5,592 nt of DNA from Erysipelotrichaceae bacterium. Lineage in GTDB: Bacteria > Bacillota_I > Bacilli_A > Erysipelotrichales > Erysipelotrichaceae. Location of the stretch: contig DMBB01000270.1 of NCBI GenBank assembly GCA_003446295.1, positions 1-5,592 of the forward strand, given 5' to 3'. The notes below the pieces were generated by a model. It ran no database searches, had not been told where the DNA came from, and saw only the letters and a list, made by a program, of their open reading frames with translations. Of this stretch, positions 2,124-4,911 are shown one piece after another. Position 1 is the stretch's first letter. Each line of letters starts with the position of its first letter. The position numbers were made by a program, and so were the translations under genes.

Positions 2124-2152
2124 TTGACGCAGAAAAAAGTATTGTTGATAAT
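2124..2152 (+). promoter_or_regulatory. Sigma-A-type promoter for the riboswitch-controlled lipoprotein gene
   Basis: TTGACG (2124-2129, 5 of 6) and GATAAT (2147-2152, 5 of 6) are separated by an ideal 17 nt. Transcription should start near 2159, giving a leader of about 240 nt that begins about 10 nt before the P1 helix of the lysine aptamer. That placement is what a transcription-terminating riboswitch needs. Confidence 0.82.
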
Positions 2153-2168
2153 AAGCACATGAAAACTG

Positions 2169-2333
2169 AATCGATAGAGGTAGCGGTGCAGATGAGTATG
2201 ATCGCGAGCCGGCAGGCTGTGAACGATCAGAAAGGCAACCACCGCCGAACGGTATCCGCCGGCAGGCAGGTTCCGTGGGGATGCGGATAAGATCCGTATC
2301 ACTCCTTCGCTTATTGAAGTGGCGCTATTGCTT
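2169..2333 (+). promoter_or_regulatory. Lysine riboswitch aptamer (L box)
   Basis: The sequence and helices match the lysine riboswitch class. P1 pairs 2169-2177 with 2325-2333, with one mismatch and one G-U. The core AGAGGT follows P1. The P2 base GCGGTG (2183-2188) pairs with CACCGC (2240-2245). The conserved GATGAGTA (2191-2198) lies opposite AGAAAGGC, the family's internal-loop and kink-turn region. Upper P2 is TGATCG (2199-2204) with CGATCA (2224-2229). The conserved junction GCCGAA is at 2244-2249. P3 pairs 2249-2256 with 2269-2276, with one T-T mismatch and one G-U. P4 pairs 2281-2288 with 2292-2299. P5 is CTTC (2305-2308) with GAAG (2316-2319). Loops L2 and L3 both carry GCCGGC (2208-2213, 2258-2263), which can form the family's kissing interaction. 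In known members lysine binds the five-way junction and stabilises P1. It controls the lipoprotein gene at 2399. Confidence 0.95.
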
Positions 2334-2357
2334 ATGGATGATTGCCGTATGTAATAG
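2325..2357 (+). promoter_or_regulatory. Antiterminator of the lysine riboswitch
   Basis: 2325-2337 (CTATTGCTTATGG) can pair with 2345-2357 (CCGTATGTAATAG) across a 7-nt loop. Twelve of 13 positions pair, two as G-U, with one T-T mismatch. The 5' arm contains the whole 3' strand of P1, and the 3' arm contains the whole 5' strand of the terminator. The hairpin is therefore incompatible with both ligand-bound P1 and termination, as expected for a lysine-OFF switch. Confidence 0.85.
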
Positions 2358-2373
2358 CATACGGTTTTGTTTT
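2345..2373 (+). terminator. Riboswitch-controlled intrinsic terminator
   Basis: A perfect 7-bp stem pairs CCGTATG (2345-2351) with CATACGG (2358-2364) around the loop TAATAG. TTTTGTTTT (2365-2373) follows. It ends 26 nt before the ATG at 2399 and well before the ribosome-binding site, so termination here removes the whole coding region. Confidence 0.92.
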
Positions 2374-2382
2374 CGGGGAAAA

Positions 2383-2388
2383 AGGAGG
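2383..2388 (+). promoter_or_regulatory. Ribosome-binding site deciding the second lipoprotein start
   Basis: AGGAGG with 10 nt to the ATG at 2399. It decides against the in-frame TTG at 2342, which lies at the base of the terminator stem and would put 19 hydrophobic and polar residues ahead of a normal lipoprotein signal. Confidence 0.85.
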
Positions 2389-2398
2389 AAATTATTCC

Positions 2399-4093
2399 AT
2401 GCATCACCATTCACGTTTCGGACTCAGTCTGGCAGCTGCAGCACTCCTGCTTGCAGGATGCTCATCCGGCTCACCTTCAACAGACGGAGCTCCTACTTCC
2501 GCCGCAGAATCAGCAGCAGCTGAAACCACACCCGCAGAAACAGCTTCCAAGGATTCCATGACTGTAGGCGTATTCTCACAGTTTACAGATATGGATCCCG
2601 CCACAAACGGAGAACTGGTCAACTCATATGTGCTTCACCACATGTACGCAACAATGTTCCGTACAGATAAAGAAGGCCAGCCTCAGAAAGAACTGTGCAC
2701 AGACTATACAGTCTCTGAAGACGGTCTGACACATACCTTCAAGATCAGAGAAGACGCTGTCTGGTCAGACGGCACACCTCTGACAGCGAACGATTTCGTA
2801 TATGCATACCTGCGTGCGCTGAGCTATGGCGTTGACGCATCCAACCAGATCTATAACATGGTGGTCTATATTGAAGGCGCTGAAGAGTACAACCTTCACG
2901 CGATCGAAGTCGGTGACAGTTTTGACTGCACAACAGAAGACCACAGCACTGTCGGTATCGAAGCACCGGATGATTACACGCTCGTGCTGACACTGAAGCA
3001 GCCCTGCACATTCCTGCCGCTCCTGATGAGCAGCGGTGCATGGATCCCGCTGCCTCAGAACACACCTCAGCATGACAACCAGTGGGCATTCACACCCGGT
3101 TATCCGGTCAGCCACGGTTACAACCTGACTGAGATCAACATCAATGACAAGTGCGTCCTGCAGAAGAACGATTCATTCTACAACGCTGACGATATCACAA
3201 TGCCTGAGATCGTATGGCAGGTAGTACCGGATTCTGAAGCACAGCACCTTGCATTCGAAGCAGGCGACCTGGATGTCGCTACTGAAGTTTCCTCCGATAC
3301 AGCACGTTCTTATGAAGGTACGGATTCCCTCTGGGTAGCTATGGATCCTTCCACATACTGCATCATCATCAACACGGGTGAAAAGGGACCTGAATGGGCA
3401 AAGGATGTCAGAGTCAGAAGAGCTCTTGCAATGGCTGTTGACCAGACTGCTGTCACTGAAGTTATCGGCTCCACATTCTATCCTGTACTGAAGTCCTATC
3501 TGCCGTTCGGTCTGGAAGGCATCAACGGAGACTTCCGTCAGGAAAGAGATGATGAAGGCGGATATACACTGGTATACAATCCTGAAGAATCCAAGCGTCT
3601 GCTTGCTGAAGCAGGATATGATGAATCCAACCCGCTCCACATCGAATACTACTATTCCACAAACTCCATGCATGGTGATGTTGCAACAATGCTGCAGCAG
3701 ATGTGGGGAGCAGTTGGTGTAGATGTTACATTCAAGGCAGTTGAAGCAGGCGTCTACTATGACGGATGGTATGCAGGTGACTATGAGATCGCTCGTTATG
3801 GCGTTGCTCTGTCACACCCGATCACAGCTATGAACAGCTGGACAACAGCTTACCAGCAGGTAGCTACAGTTGCTGACCCGGTTTATGACCAGATGATGGC
3901 TGACATCCAGGCAACAACAGATGCTAAGGAAGCTCTGCAGAAGACACATGATCTGGAAGACTATCTGGTCGACCAGGAAGCACACCTGATCCCGATGTTC
4001 CAGTTCACAATGCCGATGCTGAAGAACCCGGATCTGCAGGGATATGAAATGCATGTTTCCTATCCTTACTTCGGATACGCTTCATTCAAATAA
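2399..4093 (+). CDS. Lysine-riboswitch-controlled substrate-binding lipoprotein, family 5
   Basis: A second OppA/DppA-type extracytoplasmic binding protein, 564 aa from this start. Seen: an unusual n-region M-H-H-H-S-R, a hydrophobic core, and the canonical lipobox L-A-G-Cys21. A Ser/Ala/Glu/Thr-rich tether runs to about residue 53. The binding domain carries D-M-D-P-A-T-N-G, W122-S-D-G-T-P...D-F-V-Y, and a G-Y-P-V-S-H-G-Y block resembling the family's V-x-N-G-P-Y element. It is collinear with the 53-1753 protein and about two-thirds identical by eye. Arg466, equivalent to the OppA carboxylate-binding Arg, is kept, but the amino-terminus-binding Asp motif is replaced by G-V-A-L-S-H-P (468-474). 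The gene is preceded by its own promoter, a lysine aptamer and a terminator, and followed by another terminator, so it is monocistronic and predicted to be off when lysine is abundant. By inference it feeds lysine, a lysine-containing peptide or a relative to a transporter encoded elsewhere. The ligand is unproven. Confidence 0.93.
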   Translation: MHHHSRFGLSLAAAALLLAGCSSGSPSTDGAPTSAAESAAAETTPAETASKDSMTVGVFSQFTDMDPATNGELVNSYVLHHMYATMFRTDKEGQPQKELCTDYTVSEDGLTHTFKIREDAVWSDGTPLTANDFVYAYLRALSYGVDASNQIYNMVVYIEGAEEYNLHAIEVGDSFDCTTEDHSTVGIEAPDDYTLVLTLKQPCTFLPLLMSSGAWIPLPQNTPQHDNQWAFTPGYPVSHGYNLTEININDKCVLQKNDSFYNADDITMPEIVWQVVPDSEAQHLAFEAGDLDVATEVSSDTARSYEGTDSLWVAMDPSTYCIIINTGEKGPEWAKDVRVRRALAMAVDQTAVTEVIGSTFYPVLKSYLPFGLEGINGDFRQERDDEGGYTLVYNPEESKRLLAEAGYDESNPLHIEYYYSTNSMHGDVATMLQQMWGAVGVDVTFKAVEAGVYYDGWYAGDYEIARYGVALSHPITAMNSWTTAYQQVATVADPVYDQMMADIQATTDAKEALQKTHDLEDYLVDQEAHLIPMFQFTMPMLKNPDLQGYEMHVSYPYFGYASFK

Positions 4094-4101
4094 GCTTGAC
4101 T

Positions 4102-4128
4102 AAGGAGGGCCGCGAGCTCTCCTTTTTT
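4102..4128 (+). terminator. Intrinsic terminator after second binding-protein gene
   Basis: A 9-bp stem pairs AAGGAGGGC (4102-4110) with GCTCTCCTT (4116-4124), with one G-U pair, around a 5-nt loop. A run of six T (4123-4128) overlaps the end of the stem. It lies 8 nt after the stop codon. The AAGGAGG in its 5' arm resembles a ribosome-binding site, but no start codon follows at usable distance. Confidence 0.9.
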
Positions 4129-4132
4129 CGTC

Positions 4133-4167: not shown

Positions 4168-4911
4168 ATGAAGATCATACTGTCACCGGCAAAAAAGATG
4201 ATCCCTGAGGATACAGTCCTGTACAGAGGACTGCCGTGCTTTATCGAAGAAGCGGAATATCTCAGAGACCTGATGAAACAGATGAACAGGGAACAGCTGA
4301 AAGAGCTCTGGAAGTGCTCAGATAAACTGGTCCTGGAGAATCTGGAACGTCTTGAACATATGGACCTGAGAAGAGGCCTTTCACCTGCAGTCCTGACTTA
4401 CTCAGGACTTGCCTACCAGCATATGGCACCGGACGTCATGACAGATGATGAAATGGAGTACCTGGATGAACATCTGCGCATCCTGTCGGGACTGTACGGC
4501 GTACTGAAGCCATTTGATGGTGTCCGTCCGTACCGTCTGGAAATGCAGGCAGGACTTCTGAACAGAAACGGCAGAGACCTGTATGCATTCTGGGGAGACA
4601 GACTGTACAGGCAGGTATGCTCAGAACATGAGCTGATCGTGGACCTTGCCTCAAAGGAATATTCTTCAGCAGTGACCCCGTATCTCACGCAGGATGATCA
4701 ATACGCTGAATGCGTGTTCGCTATTGAAAAGAATGGAAAACTGATCGTCAAAGGAACCCTTGCCAAAATGGCCAGAGGCAGTATGGTCAGATGGATGGCA
4801 GAGACAAAAGCAGAAAACAAGGAAGATCTGAAGAAGTTTGACAGAGGCTGGACATTCAGCCCTGAGCATTCCTCAGACACATCCTATGTGTTCCTGAATC
4901 AGGATCAATGA
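4168..4911 (+). CDS. yaaA: YaaA family peroxide-stress protein (DUF328/UPF0246)
   Basis: A cytoplasmic protein of 247 aa, close to the 258 aa of E. coli YaaA. Family landmarks are all visible: the N-terminal I4-L-S-P-A-K, the central H102-L-R-I-L-S-G-L-Y-G-V-L-K-P-F-D block followed by R120-P-Y-R-L-E-M, D137-L-Y-A-F-W-G-D, D159-L-A-S-K-E-Y, the basic K200-M-A-R-G-S-M-V-R stretch, and the closing F224-D-R-G-W-T-F with the S-Y-V-F end. In E. coli YaaA is OxyR-induced, limits free intracellular iron during hydrogen peroxide stress, and has a DNA-binding-type fold. Its exact activity is not settled. The start coincides with the family's N-terminal motif even though no Shine-Dalgarno site precedes it. 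A small membrane protein follows after 29 nt and probably shares the transcript. No peroxide-regulator box is evident in the short upstream gap. Confidence 0.95.
   Translation: MKIILSPAKKMIPEDTVLYRGLPCFIEEAEYLRDLMKQMNREQLKELWKCSDKLVLENLERLEHMDLRRGLSPAVLTYSGLAYQHMAPDVMTDDEMEYLDEHLRILSGLYGVLKPFDGVRPYRLEMQAGLLNRNGRDLYAFWGDRLYRQVCSEHELIVDLASKEYSSAVTPYLTQDDQYAECVFAIEKNGKLIVKGTLAKMARGSMVRWMAETKAENKEDLKKFDRGWTFSPEHSSDTSYVFLNQDQ

Follow-up and report, generated by a model that had tools for sequence, protein, structure and literature searches.

A lysine riboswitch upstream of the gene for a family-5 binding lipoprotein in Erysipelotrichaceae, and RNA leaders for basic amino acids across the protein's subfamily

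The stretch of Erysipelotrichaceae DNA analyzed here (5,592 nucleotides, contig DMBB01000270.1 of assembly GCA_003446295.1; hereafter the window) carries a lysine riboswitch directly before the gene for a family-5 substrate-binding lipoprotein (SBP5). The lipoprotein, repressed by lysine, probably serves as a bait that captures bound lysine for a shared importer; this is the most likely of the readings weighed below, and we infer the ligand from the regulatory context. Statements about genomes refer to relatives and not to the window's own genome.

The riboswitch itself is ordinary for its class. The aptamer (2167-2335, + strand) aligns to the full RF00168 covariance model (1-182), scoring 74.8 bits where the gathering score is 30 (E = 9.3e-19), and is the window's sole Rfam match at E ≤ 1. 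An earlier note on this DNA had claimed a lysine aptamer and proposed an Infernal/Rfam search as a check, which the aptamer thus passes; a chance match was set aside in view of the E-value of 9e-19 and the conservation described below. The alignment contains five helices around the conserved junction core, P5 being the least certain, with a poorer fit to the model and lower posteriors. Inspection of the sequence by eye bears out the helices that the note had drawn: P1 comprises 2169-2177/2325-2333 with a single mismatch (T2171/C2331), P2 comprises 2183-2188/2240-2245 and 2199-2204/2224-2229, and the conserved segments GATGAGTA, AAAGGC and GCCGAA are all at their expected positions. A contact between loops L2 and L3 is a feature of lysine riboswitches. 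Here both L2 (2208-2213) and L3 (2258-2263) read GCCGGC by eye, and as this sequence is self-complementary, the two loops can pair (2208-2263, +) and the contact can form. Upstream lies a promoter-like sequence, TTGACG and GATAAT separated by 17 nt (2124-2152, +), recognized purely by its match to the consensus.

Folding of the leader predicts an expression platform that competes with P1, as is typical of the class. Positions 2324-2337 can pair with 2345-2358 at 13 of 14 positions to form a competing antiterminator (2324-2358, +). One arm contains the 3′ strand of P1 (2325-2333), and the other coincides with the 5′ arm and loop of an intrinsic terminator, a hairpin at 2344-2365 followed by a T-rich tail (2344-2373, +) that was also recovered as a terminator-like hairpin match. 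In the nascent tail, the antiterminator reaches −14.5 kcal/mol versus −12.3 for the terminator alone; when the entire leader is folded without constraint, the terminator forms (−78.2), and enforcing the antiterminator gives −75.2. Lysine binding stabilizes P1 in this class and, since the antiterminator needs the 3′ strand of P1, lysine should end transcription; it is predicted to act as an off switch by premature termination. The same alternation of P1, antiterminator and terminator is found in all 15 leaders folded, nine before SBP5 and six before SBP_bac_3-type (SBP3) genes. The terminator arms differ on both sides between lineages (CCGTATG/CATACGG, CCGCGTA/TACGCGG and CCGTGTA/TACACGG).

The controlled gene extends from an ATG at 2399 to 4093 (+); the mechanical open reading frame begins earlier, at a TTG at 2342, and a ribosome-binding site, AAAGGAGGAA, is visible by eye at 2381-2390 (+). 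Its 564-residue product scores 234.6 bits against PF00496 (cut-off 32.4) and has a lipobox, LLLAGC, identified by eye, which confirms the family-5 solute-binding lipoprotein that the earlier note had recognized. Its AlphaFold model (pLDDT, the predicted local distance difference test, 90.6) has a cluster-C fold with DppE as the best match. The note's further label, 'OppA-type,' is right as to family 5 but too strong, because the protein lacks the OppA anchor for the peptide N terminus (see below) and reaches 149.8 bits against the curated NCBIfam OppA equivalog, whose cut-off is 947. A terminator-like hairpin (4102-4124) with a T tail (4102-4130, +; hairpin match) follows the gene, so that the transcription unit looks monocistronic. 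Read-through into the downstream yaaA gene was set aside, as this hairpin intervenes.

The pairing of riboswitch and SBP5 recurs in relatives, as seen when riboswitch positions were matched to those of the window protein's homologues, first across 244 genomes of the family and then in a chosen set of 15. The nearest loci, with proteins 92-94% identical, are in Solobacterium metagenome-assembled genomes from cattle, goat and rumen-type samples. The riboswitch directly precedes the orthologue in four of the four genomes that have one at ≥75% identity (G001, G002 and G004, with G003 at 75%), and each of these has one other lysine riboswitch, before an SBP3 gene (Pfam was run on one, L014). Reading of the downstream genes in G039, G082, G108 and G130 identified riboswitch-led SBP5s that are 43-44% identical to that of the window. 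Lysine control of SBP5 arose twice within the subfamily: a tree of 57 homologues splits the nine proteins under lysine control into two groups, of which the second is sister to proteins behind Arg T-boxes in the same genomes, and a single clade is rejected by 458 log-likelihood units (p-AU 1.2e-42). Within each group, the SBP5 aptamers are 72-82% identical to the SBP3 aptamers, and for this reason each lineage may have copied its resident SBP3 leader. A third case, in G298, involves an SBP5 that is 22% identical to that of the window over the BLAST match (PF00496, 289.8 bits). At this locus (L308 278-2162, G298:C148), the riboswitch precedes an unrelated lone SBP5, which sits beside unrelated ABC genes resembling a different importer. 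Rfam at gathering thresholds missed the riboswitches of L001, L002 and L004, which the family search of genomes had found; we take this to be filter loss, and other leader scans at the same setting may also have lost leaders.

The genes behind 116 lysine riboswitches of the family were classified by BLAST to one reference each: SBP3 (47), LysA (28), YfcC-like (12), SBP5 (8), DapA (5), AGCS (5), another permease (4), NhaC-like (3), DapB (3) and unclassified (1). All eight SBP5 cases are among the 26 riboswitches from genomes chosen for kinship. None of the other 90 (the best-scoring L021-L050 and the next rows, L181-L240) precedes an SBP5, where L181-L240 left out G044:C20 and rows already covered in the 15-genome set, some of them SBP5. 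These 90 are among the matches listed in the family-wide search, whose stricter filters missed second riboswitches of G001, G002 and G004 that the other genome search had found. In a class-wide sample of 60 genomes, one riboswitch precedes an SBP5 and 16 precede unclassified genes among 64 of the 65 matches listed; L014 was left out as already counted, and L261 repeats L184. At nine of the class-wide loci (L250, L253-L255, L267, L293, L295, L300 and L301), a MEKLIITAAICGAEVTKEH-type protein is encoded ~450 bases downstream of the lysine riboswitch; it resembles a cleavage enzyme of lysine fermentation.

Other members of the subfamily are wired to the remaining basic amino acids. Sixteen SBP5 paralogues are led by T-boxes (L009-L011, L081-L086, L089-L092, L095, L096 and L099), and all 16 specifiers are basic, CGC (Arg) in 12 and CAC (His) in four. 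The specifier rule was calibrated on T-boxes of the same genomes (metS ATG, serS TCC, valS GTC, alaS GCC/GCT and tyrS TAC), with the codons read by eye and one synthetase of each kind confirmed. For L081, L084 and L090, the specifiers were taken from T-box alignments, since the script pattern hit the wrong places, and the T-box of L082 is below threshold (84.1 bits). According to the tree, the 16 amount to about five lineages, several members being mutual orthologues, and are not 16 independent events. The 42 subfamily members in the tree include nine behind a lysine riboswitch, 12 behind an Arg T-box, four behind a His T-box and three that are second genes behind an Arg T-box. In the same genome set, SBP_bac_3 importers likewise follow Arg (L126 and L149) and His (L145) T-boxes. 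The earlier note had linked the lipoprotein to lysine supply, and this is supported by the conservation in four of four genomes, the second origin within the subfamily, the third case and the sister proteins under Arg/His sensors. The substrate that the note hinted at is putative.

A candidate for the shared importer is found in the relatives. All eight genomes with the pair encode an OppB that shares 64-66% identity with the OppB neighbouring this clade's binding protein in L008; G003 has a further one at 61%, and all eight have more distant OppBs. The surroundings of OppB were read in six of the eight. In G082 and G130, the operon order is Arg T-box, SBP5, SBP5, OppB, OppC and two ATPases. 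The G039 operon has a T-box, one SBP5 and a shorter piece of another, then OppB (located through the OppB search) and two ATPases; at this locus (L178 7581-10105), the second SBP5 is only a 245-267 residue piece in a draft genome. The operon of G001, G003 and G004 (L175 4075-10184, L176 309-6438 and L179 42-6158) consists of an S9 peptidase, OppB, OppC, one ATPase and an M20 amidohydrolase, with families assigned from L175. The S9 protein is nearest to the S9 family peptidase 7ep9 (545.6 bits), and the M20 protein to HmrA (126 bits) and then to Xaa-Arg dipeptidase (107.9 bits). No binding protein and no leader were found in this operon, with L180 outside the leader scan and no search made for a second ATPase.

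These elements suggest how the system may work. When lysine is plentiful, the riboswitch would repress the one-gene lipoprotein mRNA by terminating transcription prematurely. When lysine is scarce, the lipoprotein would be made and would capture extracellular bound lysine, in peptides or in other forms. Its cargo would then pass to a shared ABC importer of the OppBC type, whose genes lie elsewhere, and intracellular peptidases would presumably release the lysine. Because other subfamily members answer to arginine and histidine through T-boxes, it seems that several baits for basic amino acids, each under its own regulation, serve one importer.

Several observations weigh against this reading. 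In OppA, an aspartate bonds the N terminus of the peptide (Asp419 in Salmonella, Asp445 in E. coli; PMC5736914, in part), and the window protein has ALSHP in place of the corresponding ADY. DY occurs in none of 65 aligned homologues and ADY anywhere in residues 400-520 in one of 120; SADY is kept in 15 more distant homologues of the set and is missing from the window subfamily. As the subfamily lacks the OppA aspartate, either peptides may be held in another way or the ligands may have no normal N terminus. In addition, no residue pattern separates the lysine-controlled from the Arg/His-controlled proteins. Only one position, Leu530, is common to the two lineages under lysine control and missing from the Arg/His proteins, and it was judged uninformative. 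No leader was found for 14 of the 42 subfamily members, including the window's upstream paralogue, in scans whose Rfam filter loses real leaders, and the docking of lone lipoproteins to shared OppBC permeases is something that we infer.

The lysine biosynthesis genes point both ways. In favour of the reading, lysA (TIGR01048, curated cut-off 297.9) is above the cut-off in none of the eight genomes with a riboswitch-led SBP5 (G039 reaches 148.4 bits). However, of nine relatives without the pair, five are above the cut-off and four are not, so that a missing lysA is no mark of the pair; G242, which also lacks the pair, reaches 284.1 bits. The dapB score exceeds its own cut-off in none of G001-G004 and in all four of G039, G082, G108 and G130. 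Draft genomes do miss genes, as G224 has lysA and no dapB match. Thus, the low lysA scores of relatives without the pair and the dapB of the second group leave the lysine need of pair-bearing genomes suggestive only.

The loss of the anchor bears on two of the alternatives. The subfamily might be a bait set for bound basic amino acids, with RNA leaders as address labels and one shared OppBC, whose ligands lack a normal N terminus, such as N-acylated or β-alanyl conjugates of Lys, Arg or His. The missing anchor and the S9 peptidase and Xaa-Arg-dipeptidase-like M20 protein in the operon of G001, G003 and G004 point to such ligands, and we regard this version as a tentative and rather doubtful one. 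Binding of free lysine or free basic amino acids, which would make the system a second free-lysine importer beside the SBP3 one, would also account for the absent anchor and for control by single amino-acid sensors. It is nevertheless unlikely, since most of the family-5 proteins closest to it in sequence and fold bind peptides (DppE, MppA and OppA), the matching OppBC operon of G001, G003 and G004 encodes the two hydrolases, and the SBP3 importer is already under a lysine riboswitch of its own.

The remaining alternatives concern specificity and source. That the two lineages have no common lysine-specific residues, and that their leaders are as close to the SBP3 leaders of related genomes as local copying would leave them, would suit a broad-range peptide scavenger in front of which a lysine leader was merely copied, giving general nutrient control and no lysine preference. 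This is quite unlikely given that the same wiring originated repeatedly and that Lys, Arg and His are the only amino acids sensed by the leaders that stand directly before 25 members of the subfamily. Recycling of lysine-type cell-wall peptides (for example, L-Ala-γ-D-Glu-L-Lys) in place of uptake of dietary peptides is very unlikely: OppA matches score nearly equally (152.8 bits), dapB is present in G039, G082, G108 and G130, and the Arg and His paralogues do not fit a cell-wall role. A bait for bound lysine under lysine repression remains the reading that we prefer.

The window also contains a paralogue of the controlled gene, 64% identical and in the same orientation, at 53-1753 (+; open reading frame list, PF00496). 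No RNA leader was found for it, with only 52 bases preceding the gene in the window, nor was one found for its relatives. Riboswitch control of this paralogue was set aside, as it lies upstream of the promoter. The flanking genes are ordinary and encode a small GIY-YIG domain protein (1826-2074) and the peroxide stress protein YaaA (4168-4911).

What is new is the kind of gene under control and the way in which its subfamily is wired to basic amino acids. There are many family-5 binding proteins, and sequence seldom reveals what they bind; leaders that label paralogues of one subfamily with Lys, Arg or His yield a short list of testable ligands. The pattern suggests that the capture proteins form a set in which each is tuned to a single basic amino acid. 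If so, these gut Erysipelotrichaceae use one kind of RNA sensor to control the uptake of both bound and free lysine, and a target class not named in the lysine section, as far as available, of a 2017 survey (PMC5584792) joins the lysine regulon. Our literature search found no description of a family-5 binding protein gene preceded by a lysine riboswitch; the 2003 founding paper on lysine elements was outside that search, so absence from print is not established.

Compared with known systems, the aptamer is of the same class as those before known lysine transporters, whose control is well known in Firmicutes; the survey of 468 lysine riboswitches gives lysP/gabP, lysW, yvsH and lysX-lysY as transporter targets there (PMC5584792, in part). 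The known L-box targets differ from ours in that the survey's lysine section, in the part available, names no family-5 binding protein; no word beginning with 'peptide' occurs in its main text, and the closest target that it lists is the oligoendopeptidase F of Mycoplasma (PMC5584792, in part). With OppA/DppE-type cluster-C proteins, the window protein shares PF00496 and the fold, but it has no DY anchor, falls far below the OppA cut-off and stands alone outside an opp operon. T-box-controlled amino-acid importers are a further parallel, as paralogues of the window protein and SBP_bac_3 importers of the same genomes carry Arg/His T-boxes, whereas for lysine a metabolite-binding riboswitch replaces the T-box. 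In the Opp system of Borrelia, several peptide-binding proteins share few permeases (PMC5736914, in part); here, in contrast, RNA leaders specific for particular amino acids sort the candidates, which would presumably share one importer.
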